Shown here: positions 6,041 to 23,890 of the stretch, one piece after another | Layout: each line of letters opens with the position of its first letter | Position numbering within the stretch: the stretch's first letter is position 1 | From: Desulfobacterales bacterium | GTDB taxonomy: Bacteria; Desulfobacterota; Desulfobacteria; Desulfobacterales; UBA5852 | Assembly: GCA_030065585.1 (NCBI GenBank) | Contig: JASJED010000075.1 | Span: 1-38,095, forward strand | Direction of reading: 5' to 3' | Length of the DNA stretch: 38,095 bases | Notes under the pieces: model-generated | The model's input: only the letters and a program-made list of their open reading frames with translations | What the model was told of the DNA's origin: nothing | The model's database searches: none | Program-made: the position numbers and the translations under genes

Positions 6041-6469
6041 ACGGTTGAAGGGGCCGGACCGCAGCGGTTTTCAAACCCGACCCTTAGCCGGGCGGGGTTG
6101 CCGCGGGCTTTGAATCGGTTCTCTCGACCGCCGGGGCCATTGCCGGAGCCGCTGGGTGTTCGGCCGCCGACCGTGAGTTCATCACCACGGCCGTATTGAC
6201 AGCGCGATGGGTTTGGATTATCCGTGTTTCAGGGGAATATAAAGCGATGCCGTTTCCGCGCCGCGAAACGGGGGTTTAACCATCGCGACCATAGCCTGGC
6301 ATTTGCTTTGTTATTCATTCACGCGCGCATTCCTTTTCTTCAAACATGCCCACATAATCGGCCGTCATGAAGCCTCGTAAGATTCGGAGGGCGAGGACAA
6401 TGACGGTCATTCGATGCAACCCTTCAACGGGTGGTCGATGCGTTGAAGATCTACTAACGAGGAGGCATA
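6041..6469 (+). other. Intergenic region upstream of the GAF gene, weak promoter candidate
   Basis: This holds 429 bp without a convincing gene. A perfect sigma70-type -35 hexamer TTGACA lies at 6196-6201, followed after 17 nt by the poor -10 TATCCG (6219-6224). It could drive the GAF gene, whose ribosome site GAGGAGG sits at 6459-6465. Near the patatin stop there is a short ACCGT-ga-ACGGT dyad, and at about 6077-6102 an imperfect GC-rich stem without a T-run. An open frame from 6367 overlaps the GAF gene in another frame and is not convincing. Confidence 0.3.
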
Positions 6470-7021
6470 ATGAAAAACTTGGCGATCAACTACGAAACGC
6501 TGATCAAGGTCACGCGGTCCCTTTCGAAATCCAAGGATCCGGAACAAATCATCCAGATGACGGTCGAGAGCATCCAGTCGGCGCTGGGCTTGAAGGGCTG
6601 CGCGTTGTTTCTCATCAATCCACAGACAAACGACTTGGAAGTCGCCGCTTCGGCCGGTCTAAGCGACGAATATCTGAACAAAGGTGCGGTGAGCGCACTG
6701 CGCTCCATCGCGGATTCGCTTCAGGACGGTCCCGTGGCGGTTTACGACGTCAGCGACGATCCCCGCATCCAGTACCCCGAAGCTGCTAAAAGCGAGGGCA
6801 TCGCCTCAATCCTTTCAGTACCCATCATCGTCGGTGATGATGCCATCGGCGCCGTTCGCGCTTACACGGCCGAACCCTGGGAATTCACCCTGGACGATGT
6901 GAATTTCGTTCAAGCACTGGCCCAGATCGCCGGCGTGCTCATCGAGATGAGCCGCCTCCACAAGGGGCAGAGTGAATACATCGACGTTCTGGCCACGACC
7001 TGCGAGTCGCCAGCCCTCTAG
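6470..7021 (+). CDS. Stand-alone GAF-domain protein
   Basis: A 183-residue soluble protein that is essentially one GAF domain (about residues 15-165), preceded by a short helix (TRSLSKSKDPEQIIQ). Typical GAF features are the ALGLKGCALFLI strand, the VYDVSDDPR segment and the SILSVPIIVGDDAIGAVRAY core. GAF domains bind small ligands such as cyclic nucleotides, tetrapyrroles or redox cofactors. No output domain (kinase, GGDEF, DNA-binding) is attached, so it must act through a partner, if it signals at all. The start ATG follows a near-perfect GAGGAGG ribosome site, which suggests strong expression. A strong terminator lies 22 bp after the stop, so it is probably monocistronic and not co-transcribed with the histidine kinase downstream. 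The ligand is unknown. Confidence 0.85.
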   Translation: MKNLAINYETLIKVTRSLSKSKDPEQIIQMTVESIQSALGLKGCALFLINPQTNDLEVAASAGLSDEYLNKGAVSALRSIADSLQDGPVAVYDVSDDPRIQYPEAAKSEGIASILSVPIIVGDDAIGAVRAYTAEPWEFTLDDVNFVQALAQIAGVLIEMSRLHKGQSEYIDVLATTCESPAL

Positions 7022-15817: not shown

Positions 15818-18800
15818 TCAATCCCCCAGGCCATGATGTGATGAACTGCCTCCGTCCGCGTACTCACCTTCGTCTTCGCAACAGGCGTCAAGGCTCTGCA
15901 TGCTGCACCCGCAACAGCGGCACTTTTCGGATGGCTTGTCGCAGCACGTGTCACAGCACCGCTTGCACCCCGAGGACGTCCAGCTGGTATAGGCCATGAG
16001 GTCCAAGATCTTTTCAGGCGTTTCGGGATCATCGCTTGTGATGATCAGTTCGCTGGATCTCGGGCATTTCTCGGATGCCTTGTAGCGGATTAGGAAGTTA
16101 AGGCAGCTACCGGGATGCAGTGTCGCCGGGAAGGGGTTGTTAATCAATCTCCAGTACTTGCTAGGACGCTTCAGCGCAACGCTTGAAACGTTGAGCTTGC
16201 AGTCTCCGACGTTGCAGATCGCAATCGTGCGCTCGCCGAGACACCCGGCTTTCACGCCACCGATGCATGTCGAGCCTGTGACGACAAGCTTTCCGGACAG
16301 CGCATTTCCTGAGACCGTGACATTCTTCTGGCCGGTCGGATCGTTGCTCGTGACTGTGATGATCCCCGACTTCGGACCAAAGCTTGAAGGTGCAAAGCGG
16401 ATGGGGATCTGGACCGCCGTTTGAGGCGCAATCTCGATCGGGAAGTTCTGCACAGTCGCAACCAGAAACTCGCCGGATGAGGAGGAGATGTTCGTGACCG
16501 TTAGCGGGCACTTACCGCTGTTCTGCAAGGTCAGCGGCTGGTCGATCCCCGAGCCAACGCAGGCATTGCCAAAGGTACCGCCGTTGACGATGATCAGATC
16601 AAGCTCCGGCGCTCGGGATATCCCCGAGACATCGATCGTCCTTGACTCGAACGGCGTGCTTTCAACAGTGATCGTTGCCTGCTTCGGACCGAACGAAGCG
16701 GGCTGGAAACGGATTGGTACCTGCAACGCATTTCCCGGTTCGATGGTCAGCGGATAGGCCAGCACGTTAGGAACAACGAACTCGCCAGACGAGGACGATA
16801 GGTCCGTGATTGGAATCGTATTGACGCCGCTGTTGCTGAGGGTAAGCACCATGTCCTTGAAGGCGCCGACGCATACGTTCCCGTAGTCCCCGTCATCGGC
16901 GATGATCAGCGACAGACGCCAACCCGCCGTCTCCACGGCGGCGGCTACATCCAGCCGCCCAAAACCGTAGAACTGCGAAAAGTTTGGTCCCGCATAGCCC
17001 GGAGCTGTAGAGATAAGGCCGTTTACATCGCGCCAGCGGCCCACGGCGTCGGCGTTGTTGGGGTTGATCTTGATCGCTGTTTCGCGAAGGATGTCGCGGA
17101 CCTCCTCCCGGCGTAGCCCGGCATTGGCTGAGAGCATTAGAGCGGCCGCACTCGCCACGGTTGGCGCCGCTGCCGATGTCCCGCCGAAGGCTTGTTCGCC
17201 ACCCGACGCGTCCAAGGATGGCGCACCCTCCCCCTGTGCGCAGATGTCGATCTCGGGGCCGAAGTTCGAATCCCCCACCTTGCGTTCAACGCCGCCGCCG
17301 TCGGGCTGCGTAGAGTTCGCGACAGCAATCGTATCGGGATGTGCCGCCCAAGTGCGGAACCCGGTGATCAGTGTATCGTCATTGCCTGCCGAGTAGACCA
17401 CCACCGTGCCGAGGCCGCCACGCCCGTTGTTGGCGAGGTCCTGGAACGTGTCGTCCATGATTCCTGAAAGGGCCAACCCGTTGCTTCCGTGTGAGCAGCT
17501 GATGATGTCGGCGCCATCGGCCAGCGGCTCCGCCGGCCAGCCCGCGCTCGCGTTGCCGGTGGCAAACCCCGCCGCCCAAAGGAGGACGTCTGGGTAATTG
17601 GCGTTTGTCAGGCTGGGCCTTTCCATGACGATTTGCCTGGTGTTCGAGGCGATTCCCGAGACGTCCTCGCCGTTGTTCGTCAGCGCGGCAATGATCCCGT
17701 ATACGCCCATGCCGTGATCAGTATCAGGCGTGTACCCCGGTACGGTGCATTCCCTCAGGCCCGAGAAATCATAGCAGCGCAGGACCTGCGCCGAACCGTC
17801 GGTCAGGTTTCCGCCGATGTCCGGATGGTCAGTGTCGAGGCCACGATCGAGCGAGGCGACGACCACATTCGGGTCACCCAGAGTGCGGAGCGGATCCGCG
17901 ACGTTCAGCATGCGCCAGGCAAGGTCGACATTCTGGAGCGTCAGGTTGGCCTGGTTAGCAAATGTCGGGTCGTTCGGCGGATCGTCCGGAAAGGCGTCAT
18001 CGGTGATCTCCGCCATGATGTCCGGCTCACCGTAGACGAGCAGCCCTGCCGTGTACCAGCCTTCCACGGTCTCTATATGCCTAGCTAAATCTCCAGGGGG
18101 AAACGCAACGAGTCTTGCATTGCGCGCTTGGCGGAAACCGCGAACCACGGTGCCTTTCGCCTTTGTTATGTACCGCTCGATCTCCTCCCCGTCGATCCCG
18201 TCTCGGAATCGCAGGACGAAGTGGTTGTCGATGACCTTGCACTGGCCCTCGTGCAAGTCGACCGGAACGCCTACACGGCCGCGGCCGCCCGTAATCTTGA
18301 GTATCTTCTGATACAACTCTGTGCGAAGCTTGGGTGTGTCCTTGCGGGTGATGCGGAATATCCAGATGGAGCCCTCTGCTTGGATGAAGCCGTAGCCATC
18401 CTCTTTTTCGTCCTTCGAAGTATCAGGCTGCGCGGGTTCCAGTGGAAGCTCCTTCAGAATTCGGCCGCAAAGCGCGTCCCCCTCTTTCGGATCGGGTTTG
18501 TTCTCGGGGAAGGCGACCGCCAGCAAGGGACCGGGTGGTGGGAACGGGATGGCGTTTTGGCCGAGCCGATAGAAGGGCCAGTCGCGCTCGCCGAGGTAGA
18601 CGACGGCGTACGCCGGACTGGCGCCGACCGACAGCTTTCGCGGCGGCGAAAAGTACTTTTCGCTCGCAACCTCAAGGTCATAGATGCCAGCCGGTACGTA
18701 GCCGGAATAGACGGCTGTCTCTCCCTCACGCGTCAAGTCGTGGGTCATTCCTTCTGAGGCCAGGGTCACGGATGCCAGTGTCTCAATTGGACGGCCGAGC

Positions 18801-18874
18801 CAGTCACATACGGTGATTTCAACGATGGTTGTTTTACCGTCATGGTCCTGATGGACGTTCGAAGTCGTTTCCAT
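15818..18874 (-). CDS. Subtilisin-like S8 protease with ASH-type repeats and Cys-rich tail
   Basis: 1018 residues, much longer than a simple subtilisin. Residues ~15-80 form a small beta-sandwich (TIVEITVCDWLGRPI...) like a carboxypeptidase regulatory or collagen-binding-type domain. Residues ~215-290 resemble a propeptide or linker. The S8 catalytic domain covers ~330-650, with D343 (SLDRG), H387 (DHGMGVYG), oxyanion N498 (YSAGND) and S567 (GGTSAAAP). Three repeats follow at ~655-750, 757-857 and 862-960, each with a GNxCVG start, an LSNSG-type strand and RF.P.SFGPK, as in ASH/choice-of-anchor D domains. The end has 11 cysteines between 970 and 999. No signal peptide is visible, so export, if any, is unconventional. 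The start is well supported by TAAGGAG nine nt upstream. Substrates are unknown. Confidence 0.88.
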   Translation of the reverse strand: METTSNVHQDHDGKTTIVEITVCDWLGRPIETLASVTLASEGMTHDLTREGETAVYSGYVPAGIYDLEVASEKYFSPPRKLSVGASPAYAVVYLGERDWPFYRLGQNAIPFPPPGPLLAVAFPENKPDPKEGDALCGRILKELPLEPAQPDTSKDEKEDGYGFIQAEGSIWIFRITRKDTPKLRTELYQKILKITGGRGRVGVPVDLHEGQCKVIDNHFVLRFRDGIDGEEIERYITKAKGTVVRGFRQARNARLVAFPPGDLARHIETVEGWYTAGLLVYGEPDIMAEITDDAFPDDPPNDPTFANQANLTLQNVDLAWRMLNVADPLRTLGDPNVVVASLDRGLDTDHPDIGGNLTDGSAQVLRCYDFSGLRECTVPGYTPDTDHGMGVYGIIAALTNNGEDVSGIASNTRQIVMERPSLTNANYPDVLLWAAGFATGNASAGWPAEPLADGADIISCSHGSNGLALSGIMDDTFQDLANNGRGGLGTVVVYSAGNDDTLITGFRTWAAHPDTIAVANSTQPDGGGVERKVGDSNFGPEIDICAQGEGAPSLDASGGEQAFGGTSAAAPTVASAAALMLSANAGLRREEVRDILRETAIKINPNNADAVGRWRDVNGLISTAPGYAGPNFSQFYGFGRLDVAAAVETAGWRLSLIIADDGDYGNVCVGAFKDMVLTLSNSGVNTIPITDLSSSSGEFVVPNVLAYPLTIEPGNALQVPIRFQPASFGPKQATITVESTPFESRTIDVSGISRAPELDLIIVNGGTFGNACVGSGIDQPLTLQNSGKCPLTVTNISSSSGEFLVATVQNFPIEIAPQTAVQIPIRFAPSSFGPKSGIITVTSNDPTGQKNVTVSGNALSGKLVVTGSTCIGGVKAGCLGERTIAICNVGDCKLNVSSVALKRPSKYWRLINNPFPATLHPGSCLNFLIRYKASEKCPRSSELIITSDDPETPEKILDLMAYTSWTSSGCKRCCDTCCDKPSEKCRCCGCSMQSLDACCEDEGEYADGGSSSHHGLGD

Positions 18875-18891
18875 GGTTTGATTCTCCTTAA

Positions 18892-19074
18892 TTACGGTTC
18901 AGTTAATTCAAACATCCAAGCTACGTATTCATACGAAACCCAGAGGTGGACCCCATTGTCGAAACAGTCGTCTTCTCCATACCCAATATCTTTTAGCAGG
19001 AAGATCTCAAGTCTGCTGCCGCCGTAGCGCTTGAGTTCGTCCCAAATCTTTTCAGCAGGCGCCCTGCTAACTAA
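18892..19074 (-). pseudogene. Start-less coding remnant upstream of the S8 protease
   Basis: Reading on the minus strand, 60 open codons end at TAA 18894-18892, 17 bp before the protease start codon. The encoded stretch looks genuinely protein-like: it begins near APAEKIWDELKRYG and ends VSYEYVAWMFELTEP, rich in aromatic and acidic residues. There is no ATG, GTG or TTG in frame before the last few codons, and the frame is closed upstream by a stop at 19075-19077. It may be the 3' end of a truncated gene, or the second half of a frameshifted gene that began in the 19193 frame. The family is not recognised. The protease ribosome site lies immediately after it. Confidence 0.4.
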
Positions 19075-19250: not shown

Positions 19251-19567
19251 TAGAGGATGACCAAAATTCAAGGCCCTGATAGATTTCTTTTAGTGGAATT
19301 AGTGGGTGGGGGTTGATGCATTGATAATCCCATAGAAATCGCACAGATTAATATCTGTGATTTTCTGCCAGTATCTTTAGAAGCGGTTTCAAAACCTCAT
19401 CTAACGCCCGATGGCGGCGCTCCCAGCGTTGCTGGATTCAGCGTCGATCTTTATAACTGAAGGTGCTTTGCCGCCTTCTTCAGAATGCTCACATATCATT
19501 ATAAATGCTCCGCTTTTTCATCAGGCGGCGCCCTGCCCTCGAACGCGATCTAAGCTGGCACGGTACT
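19251..19567. other. AT-rich gap between the protease promoter and the sugar transporter
   Basis: No gene is convincing in these 317 bp, which are AT-richer than the flanking genes. A perfect inverted repeat CACAGAT-taat-ATCTGTG lies at 19342-19359; it could be an operator or a weak hairpin. A small CCAGC-gtt-GCTGG hairpin follows at about 19423-19435. No T-run terminator for the transporter operon, which ends at 19568 on the minus strand, is evident. Confidence 0.3.
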
Positions 19568-20680
19568 TTAGCCCTCGATCCGGTTGCCTGTCCCCGGCTC
19601 GAAGAACAGCGGTTTAGTGGTATCGAAAGCCAGCCGGATCGTGTCGCCGGCCTTGGGGGCCGCGTCGGGGCAGAGCCGGCAGACGATCTGGGTCTGATTG
19701 ACTTCAGTATAAACGAGGGTGTCCGGGCCGGTGGGTTCCACCACGTTGACACCGCATTCCAGCGCGGCGATGTGCGCCCAGCTTTGCATACCTTCCTGAA
19801 AATCGGTGATATTCTCCGGCCGGATGCCCATGATGATCTCACGCTCCGGGGCAAGCGCGCCGGTGTCCGCGGGGACGGGAACGGTAAACCGTCGGCCGTC
19901 GGCCGTGACGAGGGGGGCTACCAGGTGTCCGTTTTCCCTGGAAAGAGAAACCGGGATGAAGTTCATGGCCGGGGAGCCGATAAATCCGGCGACGAAAAGG
20001 TTGGCGGGGTTGGCGTAGACCCCGTCAGGCGTGTCGAACTGCTGGACGATGCCGTCTTTCATGATCGCGATGCGGTCGGCCAGGGTCATGGCCTCGATCT
20101 GATCGTGGGTCACGTAGACGATGGTGGTCCCGAGCCGCTGGTGGAGTTTTTTGATTTCGGTGCGCATCTCGACCCGCAGTTTGGCATCTAGGTTGGAAAG
20201 CGGTTCGTCGAACAGGAAGATCAGCGGCTCGCGGGCAATGGCGCGGCCCATGGCCACGCGTTGGCGCTGTCCGCCCGAAAGCTGCGAGGGCTTGCGCTCC
20301 AGAAGGTTTTCGATCTGCAGAATTTCTGCCACGCGCTGGATGCGGTTTTCGATTTCGGCCCTGGGCACCTTGCGCGTTTCCAGTCCAAAGGAAAGATTGC
20401 GGCGCACGTTCATGTTGGGGTAGAGCGCATACGACTGGAACACCATGGCGATGTCCCGGTCTTTGGGCGGGATGTTGTTGACCACCCGATCGCCCATGCG
20501 GATTTCGCCCGTGGTGATCGATTCCAGTCCCGCGATCAGGTTGAGCAGCGTCGATTTGCCGCATCCCGAAGGCCCCACCAGGACCAGAAACTCTCCGGCG
20601 TCGACGGCGATGTCGATGCCCTTGAGGACTTGGACGCGGCCGAAAGCCTTGGTGACATTGTCGATGACCAGTGATGCCAT
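19568..20680 (-). CDS. Carbohydrate ABC transporter ATP-binding protein (MalK/UgpC family)
   Basis: 370 residues, the usual length of the CUT1 ATPase subfamily. The N-terminal nucleotide-binding domain has Walker A GPSGCGKS (about residues 36-43), the Q-loop in MVFQSYALYPNM, signature LSGGQRQR, Walker B IFLFDEPLSNLD and H-loop VTHDQ. The C-terminal ~130 residues form the TOBE-type regulatory domain (MGIRPENI) characteristic of MalK, UgpC and MsmK proteins. It powers sugar import through the two permeases encoded just upstream in the same operon and is the last gene of that operon. It starts 30 bp after the preceding permease with an AGGAA ribosome site. Automated pipelines usually name this family UgpC regardless of substrate, so the name should not be read as glycerol-3-phosphate specificity. 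Confidence 0.93.
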   Translation of the reverse strand: MASLVIDNVTKAFGRVQVLKGIDIAVDAGEFLVLVGPSGCGKSTLLNLIAGLESITTGEIRMGDRVVNNIPPKDRDIAMVFQSYALYPNMNVRRNLSFGLETRKVPRAEIENRIQRVAEILQIENLLERKPSQLSGGQRQRVAMGRAIAREPLIFLFDEPLSNLDAKLRVEMRTEIKKLHQRLGTTIVYVTHDQIEAMTLADRIAIMKDGIVQQFDTPDGVYANPANLFVAGFIGSPAMNFIPVSLSRENGHLVAPLVTADGRRFTVPVPADTGALAPEREIIMGIRPENITDFQEGMQSWAHIAALECGVNVVEPTGPDTLVYTEVNQTQIVCRLCPDAAPKAGDTIRLAFDTTKPLFFEPGTGNRIEG

Positions 20681-20710
20681 AGCAATTCCTGTGGTCGCGG
20701 TCCGGCGCGC

Positions 20711-21586
20711 TTAACCCTTGACCGCTCCGGCCGTGAGGCCGCGGACAAAGTACTTGCCCGCAACAAAGTAGACGAACAGCGTCGGCAGGGCAGCGATGAT
20801 GGCGGCCGCCATGTCCACGTTGTACTCCTTGACCGACGAAGAGGTGTTGACCAGGTTGTTGAGCGCCACGGTGACCGGTTGGGTTTCGCCCGTCGAAAAG
20901 CACACGCCGAAGAGAAAGTCGTTCCAGATCTGGGTGGTTTGCCAGATGATGGTCACCATGAAGATCGGCGTACTGACCGGCAGCATGATCTTCCAGAAGA
21001 TCCGGAAAAACCCGGCACCGTCGATCCGGGCTGCATTGACCAACTCGCTGGGCACCGCAACGTAATAGTTGCGGAAGAAAAGGGTCGTAAAGGCCAGACC
21101 GTAGACGGTGTGAACCAGGACGAGTCCCCAGATCGACTCCGAAAGCCCCAGAAAGCCGAGGGTTCGCGCCATGGGCAGCAGGACCACCTGAAAGGGGATG
21201 AAGCAGCCCAGGAGCAACATGGCGAAGAAGGTATCGCTGCCCCTGAAGCGCCACTTGGAAAGCACGTAACCGTTGACCGCACCGATCAGGGTGGAGAACA
21301 GCACGGCCGGTATCACCATGCGGATGGAGTTCCAGAAGAAGCCGCGGATGCCCTCGTTGGTCACCCCGATGGTGGCATACCCCCAGGCTTTGAGCCAGGG
21401 CTCCAGTGTGGGTTGCTGGGGCAGGGCGATCAGGGTGCCGGTGCGGATTTCATCCATGTTTTTGACCGAGGTGATGACCATCACGAACAGCGGCACCAGG
21501 AAATAGACGGCAAACAGCACCAGCGTGCCGTAAATCAAGATGCGGCCGGCCGTCTCCGAGCGGGATCGACGGATGGCGTCAGGCAT
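20711..21586 (-). CDS. Carbohydrate ABC transporter permease (MalG/GtsC-like)
   Basis: A 291-residue inner-membrane permease of the CUT1 type with six predicted helices. The first spans about residues 15-37 (RILIYGTLVLFAVYFLVPLFVMVI). The EAA loop for contact with the ATPase is seen as ELVNAARIDGAGFFRIFWKI near residue 190, with the conserved Gly of the DGAG motif. This is the shorter of the two permeases, as usual for MalG-type subunits. Its start overlaps the end of the partner permease by 8 bp and has GGAGG seven nt upstream, indicating translational coupling. The neighbouring binding protein suggests a glucose/mannose-type sugar as substrate (inference). Confidence 0.92.
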   Translation of the reverse strand: MPDAIRRSRSETAGRILIYGTLVLFAVYFLVPLFVMVITSVKNMDEIRTGTLIALPQQPTLEPWLKAWGYATIGVTNEGIRGFFWNSIRMVIPAVLFSTLIGAVNGYVLSKWRFRGSDTFFAMLLLGCFIPFQVVLLPMARTLGFLGLSESIWGLVLVHTVYGLAFTTLFFRNYYVAVPSELVNAARIDGAGFFRIFWKIMLPVSTPIFMVTIIWQTTQIWNDFLFGVCFSTGETQPVTVALNNLVNTSSSVKEYNVDMAAAIIAALPTLFVYFVAGKYFVRGLTAGAVKG

Positions 21587-22481
21587 CGCGTTTCCTCCGC
21601 AACTCGGAATAGAGATAGGGCACGATAATGGCCATCACCATGGCAAACATCATCATGGCACTGGCCGCCCCCATGGCCAGCCGGCCGCGGGTAAACGCGT
21701 AGGCGTACATGAAAGTTGCCGGGAGATCGGAGGAGTAGCCCGGCCCGCCGCGCGTCAAGACCACGACGAGATCGAAACTCTTGATGGCGATGTGGGTCAG
21801 TATGATGAAGGCGCTGAAGAACACCGGGCGCAGGCTCGGAATGATGATTTTCCAGTAGATGCGCGTCAGACCGGCGCCGTCTACCTGGGCGGCCTTGATG
21901 ATGGCATCGTCGATACCGCGCAGTCCCGCCAGAAACATGGCCATGACAAAGCCGGTGGATTGCCATACGGCGGCGATGACCACACAGTAGATGGACATCT
22001 CGGAGGTCACCAGCCAGTCAAAGGTGAAAGACGACCAGCCCATCTCGCGTACCAGTCGCTCGATGCCCAAACCCGGATTCAGGAGCCATTTCCAGGCGGT
22101 GCCCGTCACCACGAAGGACAGGGCCAGCGGATAGAGATAGATGGTCCGCAGCGCCCCCTCGATACGGATTTTCTGGTCCAGGAAGATGGCCAGCATTAAT
22201 CCCAGAACCGTACAGAAGAAAATAAAAAGACCGCCGTACACCAGAAGATTGCGGCAGGCCACCCACCAGCGTTCGATTCGCCAGAGTTTGATGTACTGGG
22301 CCAGTCCAACGAAGTCATAGGTCGGCAGGAAGGTGGATTTGGTCATGGAGATGTAAAGGGTCCAGAGGATGAAACCGTAGATAAAAACGAGCATGGCCGC
22401 AAAACTCGGCGCGACGACCACCTTGGGGAGGGCGGCCTCCAGCAGGGAAGCCAAGCCTGGTTGTCGGGCGTCCGTTGGCAT
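21579..22481 (-). CDS. Carbohydrate ABC transporter permease (MalF/GtsB-like)
   Basis: About 300 residues with six predicted transmembrane helices, the first near KVVVAPSFAAMLVFIYGFIL. The EAA loop is IIKAAQVDGAGLTRIYWKI around residue 210. It forms the heterodimeric channel with the permease encoded downstream. An ATG at 22481 is chosen because GGGAGGA lies ten nt upstream; the frame remains open to a TTG at 22514, which lacks such a site. The 149-bp gap to the binding-protein gene contains a 6-bp hairpin just after that gene's stop, a common device for making more binding protein than permease. Confidence 0.92.
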   Translation of the reverse strand: MPTDARQPGLASLLEAALPKVVVAPSFAAMLVFIYGFILWTLYISMTKSTFLPTYDFVGLAQYIKLWRIERWWVACRNLLVYGGLFIFFCTVLGLMLAIFLDQKIRIEGALRTIYLYPLALSFVVTGTAWKWLLNPGLGIERLVREMGWSSFTFDWLVTSEMSIYCVVIAAVWQSTGFVMAMFLAGLRGIDDAIIKAAQVDGAGLTRIYWKIIIPSLRPVFFSAFIILTHIAIKSFDLVVVLTRGGPGYSSDLPATFMYAYAFTRGRLAMGAASAMMMFAMVMAIIVPYLYSELRRKRDA

Positions 22482-22630
22482 TCGTTTTCCATCCTCCCGA
22501 GGGTGTTGGCCCAATACGCCGGTTGAACCGCGTTAAGAGGGGGCGGCCGCCACGGGTGCATATTCAGCGCCACCGTGCGGCCGGGGTACAAAACACTTCG
22601 ATTCAGTGACCATCCAGAAAGGGGCACTGA

Positions 22631-23890
22631 TTACATCTTGGCTTCCTTGACGGCCATGGCCAGCTTCTGGGCCGCATCCTGAGGCGACATGCTGGAGTTG
22701 TAGAAGTTGGTGACCACATCGAACATGGCCCCCCGTACGGCCGGCGACACGGCCATTTCGTGGGCCATGCTGGGCATCAGGCCGCCAGTTCGAGCGGTAG
22801 CGGCAAAGTCCTGCATCGATTTTAACGCCACGGCATCGAATGGTTCTTCGGCGATACCGGAGCGCACCGGGATGGAGCCCTTGTTGACGTTGAACACGAT
22901 CTGAAAGTCGGGAGACAGGATCAGACGGGCCATGGCTTTCTGGGCTTTCTTGGCCTCCGCGTCCTTGACTTCGAACATGATGAAGGAATCCACGTTGAAA
23001 AGGAAGGCATCCGCGGTGCCCGGCACGGTGAGGGCATCGTAGTCCTTACCGGGAACCTTGCCGGCCGCCGTGAACTCGCCCTTGGCCCAGTCCCCCATGA
23101 ACTGCATCCCGGCCTCGCCTTTGATCACCATGGCCGTTGCCAGATTCCAATCACGGCCCGGGGCGTTTTTGTCGGTGTACTTTTTAATTTTCCTGAAGAT
23201 CTCGAAGACCTTGACCATGGTGTCGCTGGCCAGCGACGGCTCATCGGCCCGCACCATGGTCTTGATGTAAAAATCCGTGCCGCCGACACCCGCGACGATG
23301 GACTCCCAGGCCGTCGCTTCCTGCCAGGGCTGCCCCCCGAAGGCCACCGGGATCATACCGGCTTTCTGGATTTTTTCGCAGGCCGCGAAAAATTCATCCC
23401 AGGTCTGCGGGTACTTTGCCCCGGCTTTACGGAAGACTTCGGGATTGCACCACATCCAGTTGATACGGTGGACGTTGACCGGCACCGCCACCCATTGGCC
23501 GTTGAATTTCATGATGTCCGCCACGACCTTGGGCACCAGCGGGTCCCAGTTTTCGGCTTGGGCCACGTCATCCAGGTTGGTCAGAACCCCGAGGTCGGCC
23601 CATTCCTGGATCTGGGGGCCCTTGACCTGGGCGGCCGTAGGCGGATTGCCGGACACGGCGCGCGATTTGAGGGCCGTCATGGCGTTGGCCCCGGCCCCGC
23701 CGGCCACGGCAAAGTCTTTCCAGGTGTGCCCCTCGTTTTGCAGCATTTTTTTCAACTCCTGGACCGCGGCGGCCTCGCCGCCGGAAGTCCACCAGTGTAG
23801 CACCTCGACCTCCCCGGCCGCCGCATTGAAGGCGAACAGGGCGATCATCGATAAGGCGGCAATCACCGATTTCATCGTGCGTTTCATCAT
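22631..23890 (-). CDS. Sugar-binding protein of ABC transporter (GtsA-like, glucose/mannose type)
   Basis: A 419-residue periplasmic solute-binding protein of family 1. The signal peptide is clear (MMKRTMKS, hydrophobic core IAALSMIALFAF, cleavage near NAAAG). The mature start VEVLHWWTSGGEAAAV, the PVNVHRINWMW block and FGGQPWQ closely resemble the Pseudomonas glucose-binding protein GtsA and other glucose/mannose proteins; the Trp residues of LHWW and NWMW are expected to stack on the sugar. It is the first gene of a four-gene operon with two permeases and the ATPase. The ribosome site GAAGGGG precedes the first ATG; alternative in-frame ATGs follow at residues 2 and 6. The sugar assignment rests on recalled family resemblance and should be read as likely, not certain. 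Confidence 0.9.
   Translation of the reverse strand: MMKRTMKSVIAALSMIALFAFNAAAGEVEVLHWWTSGGEAAAVQELKKMLQNEGHTWKDFAVAGGAGANAMTALKSRAVSGNPPTAAQVKGPQIQEWADLGVLTNLDDVAQAENWDPLVPKVVADIMKFNGQWVAVPVNVHRINWMWCNPEVFRKAGAKYPQTWDEFFAACEKIQKAGMIPVAFGGQPWQEATAWESIVAGVGGTDFYIKTMVRADEPSLASDTMVKVFEIFRKIKKYTDKNAPGRDWNLATAMVIKGEAGMQFMGDWAKGEFTAAGKVPGKDYDALTVPGTADAFLFNVDSFIMFEVKDAEAKKAQKAMARLILSPDFQIVFNVNKGSIPVRSGIAEEPFDAVALKSMQDFAATARTGGLMPSMAHEMAVSPAVRGAMFDVVTNFYNSSMSPQDAAQKLAMAVKEAKM

Follow-up and report, generated by a model that had tools for sequence, protein, structure and literature searches.

Why would a large subtilase furnished with a prodomain and with domains of extracellular type begin without a signal peptide and end in a tail crowded with cysteines? 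This question is raised by a gene located in a DNA stretch of 38,095 nucleotides from a Desulfobacterales bacterium (GenBank assembly GCA_030065585.1, contig JASJED010000075.1), referred to here as the window. The gene occupies positions 15818-18874, stop codon included, and its product contains 1018 amino acids; the open reading frame and the domain profiles indicate that it is real and read on the minus strand. The ATG (18872-18874) is preceded, nine bases upstream, by the likely ribosome binding site AAGGAG (18884-18889, minus strand). An in-frame stop codon (18899-18901) is found 8 codons before the ATG, with further stops beyond, and no 15-residue stretch among the first 80 residues exceeds a hydropathy of 0.83, so that no hydrophobic N-terminus is present. 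These stops and this value bear out the claim of an earlier note, made on the same DNA, that the protease has no signal peptide. The presence of a missed N-terminal signal was rejected, since in-frame stops are found just 5' of the window gene and of three genes described below (L021, L097 and L098), and also upstream of the TTG of L022, a homologue from a MAG labelled Chloroflexi; the homologues were inspected in this respect and none shows such a signal. Just 5' of the protease, a frame without a standard start codon (18893-19060, read by eye) ends in ...WMFELTEP and is perhaps a gene remnant.

The protein is composed, in this order, of a beta-sandwich, an alpha/beta prodomain, the S8 domain, three ASH repeats, a Cys tail and an acidic end (borders are approximate and all coordinates are on the minus strand). 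By every feature tested it is assigned to peptidase family S8. The catalytic domain (residues 336-639; 16958-17869), delimited by profile and by alignment with L022, obtains 99.8 bits in the profile search for a cut-off of 21.8. The triad Asp343, His387 and Ser567, described earlier as intact, is indeed present together with the oxyanion residue Asn498, and the four residues are identical in L022. A match to the PADLOC subtilase PDLC03014 (37.2 bits) is probably a generic S8 match, and no partner gene was recognised. The ASH/choice-of-anchor-like repeats, of which three had been proposed, were recovered by profile in 3 stretches (Choice_anch_D NF012200, 101.6 bits for a cut-off of 45; PF22544, ASH/HYDIN-type Ig, 63.2 bits for a cut-off of 25.5). 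According to the profiles, repeats 1 and 2 of choice-of-anchor D type extend over about residues 655-752 (16619-16912) and 757-857 (16304-16606). The third repeat, delimited by alignments (residues 860-966; 15977-16297), contains 6 Cys. It is followed by the Cys tail (residues 970-999; 15878-15967), defined by sequence and alignment, and by an acidic end with Gly, Ser and His visible in the sequence (residues 1000-1018; 15821-15877).

The model of the full-length protein has a mean pLDDT of 34, too low to be used, and the structural basis is limited to the model of residues 1-330, as distinct from the ASH repeats or the tail; the mean pLDDT of this partial model is 58.7, with values of about 60-84 across residues 14-90. 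It displays the N-terminal beta-sandwich previously anticipated (residues 14-97; 18584-18835), placed by the model and by fold comparison. This model of moderate confidence matches 5aq0_A (Z 9.5, rmsd 2.0 over 78 residues) among many similar rows, and fervidolysin's own sandwich 1r6v with a Z of 8.9. The sandwich is predicted to adopt a transthyretin-like fold of the carboxypeptidase-D type; no Pfam match was found for it, and a PDB sequence search with the N-terminal part gave nothing. In the region after the sandwich (residues 98-300; 17975-18583), strands and helices alternate in the model and were read as two beta-alpha-beta runs. The second half of this long prodomain resembles a subtilase prodomain: in L022 the second run gives a weak match to the fervidolysin prodomain PF22148 (19.8 bits for a cut-off of 21), and the window protein has no match to PF22148 at E 1. 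The sequence AIPF at residues 108-111 (AVPF in L022) merely resembles the LIPY/F motif.

L022 (JAAYXX010000456) is 60% identical to the window protease over residues 14-647, begins at the same place and likewise lacks a hydrophobic start. Its contig stops soon after the S8 domain, within a different-looking Ig-type stretch, and covers no tail region; it adjoins a leucyl-tRNA synthetase-like gene. The presence of this homologue in a Chloroflexi MAG may reflect either a transfer between phyla or a mis-binned contig. The N-terminal part, searched for elsewhere as the earlier note had advised, was matched in the own genome only among 291 genomes of the class, and in the genome of L022 only among 301 genomes of its phylum; the N-terminal part with the S8 domain, at E 1e-40, was likewise recovered from the own genome only among 291 genomes of the order. 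As an S8 protease without a signal peptide, the window protein recalls the intracellular subtilisins, the pro-peptide of which has 16-20 residues according to the excerpted text of PMC6220982. In contrast, the window protein has 335 residues before its catalytic domain (the sandwich and the alpha/beta prodomain) and about 370 after it and, by this predicted layout, is not an intracellular subtilisin.

Concerning the tail, the count of 11 Cys within residues 970-999 is exact, and shuffling the protein 10,000 times never gave more than 7 Cys in any 30 residues. The tail, which is in frame, is conserved in three relatives; these three proteins and the shuffles rule out a chance or out-of-frame tail. 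Over the whole protein, the maximal 19-residue hydropathy is 1.27, at residue 569 within the S8 domain, and the C-terminal end is Cys-rich, acidic and polar, with no hydrophobic or basic segment. C-terminal sorting signals such as LPXTG, PEP-CTERM and similar ones consist of a hydrophobic segment and a basic end, and accompany an N-terminal signal. With the ending just described, the window protein appears to carry no known C-terminal sorting signal. The motif C-x2-CC-x2-CC of the tail was found 11 times in 6 genomes of the genus, 3 times in two known genes and 8 times in frames of at most 82 amino acids. A stricter tail pattern gave four viral stretches, all in frames of at most 30 amino acids.

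A search for the tail on other S8 proteins, also advised, was successful. A second S8 gene of the own genome (L021, contig C307; product of 825 amino acids) encodes another S8 type with another N-terminus, followed by the three ASH repeats of the window protein and by a tail with, again, 11 Cys. The assignment of the contig of L021 to the window organism is supported by its repeats, which other genomes of the genus also contain. A TGA first suspected as an internal stop of this gene is simply the codon that terminates it, where the match ends. The two proteins are 51% identical over their common part and 66% over the last approximately 160 residues. These residues constitute a putative transferable cassette, made of the Cys-rich third ASH repeat and the di-Cys tail. 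The architecture, the triad, the tail and the absence of a signal were thus correctly read in the earlier note; what it had missed is that the tail and the third ASH repeat apparently form a single cassette.

The second S8 was used as query against 291 genomes of the order (E 1e-20), and matches were obtained in four of them (the own genome, G918, G1009 and G997). The cassette is present in G918 and G1009, and the match in G997 is an S8 fragment only; with 3 carrier genomes among 291, the cassette is rare in the order. The S8 fragment of G997 (L099, about 6161-6712), aligned with residues 117-301 of the second S8 at 51% identity, contains an internal TGA and may be a broken gene. G918 and G1009 belong to another family of the order, where 2 of the 7 genomes have the cassette. 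Their carriers are proteins of 1070 or 1072 amino acids with no protease, a BNR/sortilin-like propeller in front and the cassette at the end. They are 54 and 52% identical to the second S8 over the common part, and their cassettes are 71 and 68% identical to that of the window; in the four-row alignment, all cassettes are 66-71% identical to it. These two carriers, from one genus, look like orthologues since both adjoin the same oxidoreductase-like gene. The predicted cassette is therefore common to three otherwise unrelated N-terminal modules, namely two S8 types and the propeller, a pattern that suggests a reusable tail on unlike proteins.

Thirteen Cys are invariant in the 4 cassettes, which all share the motif CS-x-QS-[LI]-D-x-CC, and in the third ASH repeat five columns contain Cys in 4/4 cassettes versus 0/9 other aligned ASH repeats. 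From these invariant Cys, the common motif and the cassette-specific columns, the third repeat and the tail seem to evolve as one Cys module. Between the window protein and L021, 17 Cys are aligned (9/9 of the ASH repeats and 8/11 of the window tail). Codon differences at positions 1/2/3 amount to 22/18/57 in the third ASH repeat and to 14/14/21 in the 38 codons of the tail. Because changes in the repeat are mostly at third positions and the 17 Cys are common to both proteins, the third repeat is judged to be under purifying selection; constraint on the tail appears weaker. Tail spacing varies among carriers, and pairwise and four-row alignments place the gaps differently, so the alignment of the tail is ambiguous in spacing. 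This variation and the rarity of the cassette in the order would suit an ordinary, degenerate Cys-rich end, without function, spread with the ASH repeats by domain shuffling, the lack of signals being then an effect of the small sample. We regard this explanation as improbable: 13 invariant Cys in carriers from two bacterial families, five Cys columns specific to the cassette repeat, the third-position bias of that repeat and the retention of 9/9 ASH Cys between the two own proteins all speak against it.

The cassette was also sought at larger scale. Among 395 genomes of the phylum, its profile A1 (E 1e-3) had matches in 11, and among 301 around the genome of L022 in 4; beyond the own genome these matches are ASH repeats, and the 14 such loci inspected have at most 4 Cys in 30 residues. 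Viral contigs searched with the cassette and with the whole protein gave no match, and a plasmid search gave one unconvincing match (E 0.3). In a PDB sequence search with the cassette, three DNA-helicase chains (E 0.6) matched over the Cys stretch, which was taken as an effect of composition. Text searches of the literature did not find a description of such a tail or cassette.

In the neighbouring DNA, no gene is common to the three kinds of carrier locus. The second S8 gene is directly followed in 3' by a DUF900 alpha/beta hydrolase (L021, 1295-2251), with the end of a WD40-repeat gene farther on. A link of these neighbours with conflict systems was considered and is unsupported by the excerpted text of PMC7159879 (eLife 2020), where S8 is mentioned together with NucA only. 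In the window, the region 5' of the protease (19376-19556) contains a copy of a dispersed, MITE-like intergenic repeat whose ends are inverted repeats (intact copies read like AAGCGGTTTCAAAACCTC ... GAGGTTTTGAAACCGCTT). This repeat occurs many times in genomes of the genus, and the window copy has lost one end; the second S8 gene in L021 is likewise preceded by a related repeat. The sequence GCGTTAGAT upstream of the protease resembled an attC end. An integron cassette was rejected, because the GCGTTAGAT element, bordered by terminal inverted repeats, is repeated at many sites in the genus and has no second copy 3' of the gene. Farther upstream, an ABC-transporter operon (19568-23890) is found, the ATPase and permease DNA of which (about 19575-21700) is 77-85% identical in G002, G003 and G004 of the genus. 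A close relative of the protease was not recovered from these three genomes, whose fetched contigs end near the end of the ABC operon.

An N-terminal signal is absent from the 4 cassette carriers. As control, 15 regions were fetched, and an ASH frame was detected in 11 of them (E 1e-5); L106, L109, L110 and L116 have no such frame and were left out of the count (L116 had been chosen as an S8 region for its N-terminus). A hydrophobic N-terminus was found in 9 of these 11 tail-less ASH proteins, those counted as signal-less being L104, the frame of which starts inside the S8 domain, and L111, which scores 1.38. The hypergeometric chance of 0/4 versus 9/11 is 0.011, or 0.027 if the carriers are counted as 3 kinds, for a small sample of related and non-independent proteins. 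Among other S8 matches, 16 stop-to-stop frames had their first 150 residues scored for hydropathy, and 13 reach at least 1.9, including L042 where the hydrophobic stretch precedes the likely start; L010, L014 and L020 are below 1.9, the first two being truncated in 5' by the limits of the locus. Since the cassette was found on three kinds of signal-less proteins, the missing signal is the rule among the known carriers (n=4) and no oddity of the window gene.

This association could mean that the cassette replaces the signal peptide. It would then be a C-terminal signal for Sec-independent export or surface anchoring, its Cys tail attaching or cross-linking the proteins outside the cell; this is the main rival of the cytosolic reading presented below, and we consider it possible but doubtful. 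All modules joined to the cassette are of extracellular kind. In the clearest pair, the tail-bearing BNR protein L097 and the tail-less L102 (G275), one of the nine control proteins with a hydrophobic N-terminus, are colinear over propeller and ASH repeats (32% identity over 1129 alignment columns), and L097 starts where its match to this secreted homologue starts: its residue 3 is aligned with residue 43 of L102, immediately after the hydrophobic signal stretch. The ASH repeats of L102 are of the same kind as those of the window protein, but L102, unlike the carriers, has this N-terminal signal and lacks both the five cassette Cys and the Cys tail. In the same phylum, secreted proteins associating S8 and choice-of-anchor D (L108 from G068; the frame-broken L104 from G106) resemble the window protein by an S8 domain followed by an ASH series and an extra C-terminal element. 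They differ from it in that this element, placed where the Cys tail is in the window protein, is a hydrophobic anchor with basic residues at the end, and in that the N-terminus of L108 is hydrophobic. Against such an export signal, the C-terminus of the window protein has neither a hydrophobic nor a basic segment, and no dedicated transporter or processing gene was recognised beside the carrier loci. Moreover, we know of no export route using such a tail, and exported bacterial proteins seldom carry free Cys in such numbers. The fuller version, where proteins of extracellular type would have lost the Sec signal and gained the cassette as an undescribed address tag for an unrecognised route of export or anchoring, is in our opinion slightly less probable again.

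Carriers might also reach the surface by lysis or another non-classical release, the tail then forming disulfide cross-links in a matrix as a structural element and not as a signal. The numerous Cys could pair after oxidation, and the Cys pair of the second ASH repeat (residues 772 and 789) is also kept in signal-bearing homologues. However, nothing in the carrier loci points to programmed lysis, and no fixed disulfide pattern agrees with the variable tail spacing; there is little to recommend this scenario.

The explanation that we prefer, although at somewhat less than an even chance, is that the window gene encodes an S8 zymogen with a mobile cassette, and that the carriers are cytosolic proteins whose Cys bind metal or act as thiols and gather unlike enzymes. 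Metal binding or thiol chemistry is the most plausible role for the tail. The carriers would stay in the reducing cytosol, where the 13 invariant Cys of the repeat and the tail could be ligands of Zn(II) or Cu(I), or behave as thiols responding to oxidation. The metal or thiol state would fold the tail and draw the various enzymes towards one partner or into a single assembly. Synthesis of the protease as a zymogen is probable, and the transthyretin-like domain and the long prodomain would keep it silent until recruitment or a metal/redox change. Several points are against this cytosolic reading: the prodomain, the transthyretin-like fold, the BNR propeller and the ASH repeats are of kinds typical of exported proteins, the tail has a variable spacing and apparently a weaker constraint, and the carrier loci have no common neighbour gene. 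It is also limited to the four carriers known, two of which are orthologues in one genus.

Compared with known systems, the window tail presumably is metallothionein-like (about 37% Cys over 30 residues, CC and CxC spacings); it differs from a metallothionein in that it terminates a large protein and is attached to an Ig-like repeat that is itself Cys-rich. Di-Cys motifs in the C-terminal extension of HMA4 bind zinc with nanomolar affinity (excerpted text of PMC6255694), and metal sensing by the cytosolic sigma factors CorE, CorE2 and OrbS relies on Cys-rich C-terminal tails (excerpted text of PMC9023288). As far as these excerpts describe them, they share with the window protein a Cys-rich or di-Cys C-terminal stretch; in them it is on a cytosolic part, binds metal and tunes the protein, and the same may be true of the window tail. 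They differ by short motifs or long extensions carried on a transporter or on sigma factors, with no domain common to unlike proteins, and no homology is claimed.

C-terminal sorting tags were mostly discovered as one short tail on many unlike proteins. The cassette fits this pattern of discovery, yet it is packed with Cys and paired with the absence of a signal. Its parts are of known kinds, and the new element is a signal-less Cys cassette common to unlike proteins. The cassette would serve cytosolic enzymes as a metal/thiol docking module, or else it would be a new export or anchoring tag, and it may offer a reason for the existence of a signal-less subtilase with a prodomain and domains of extracellular type.
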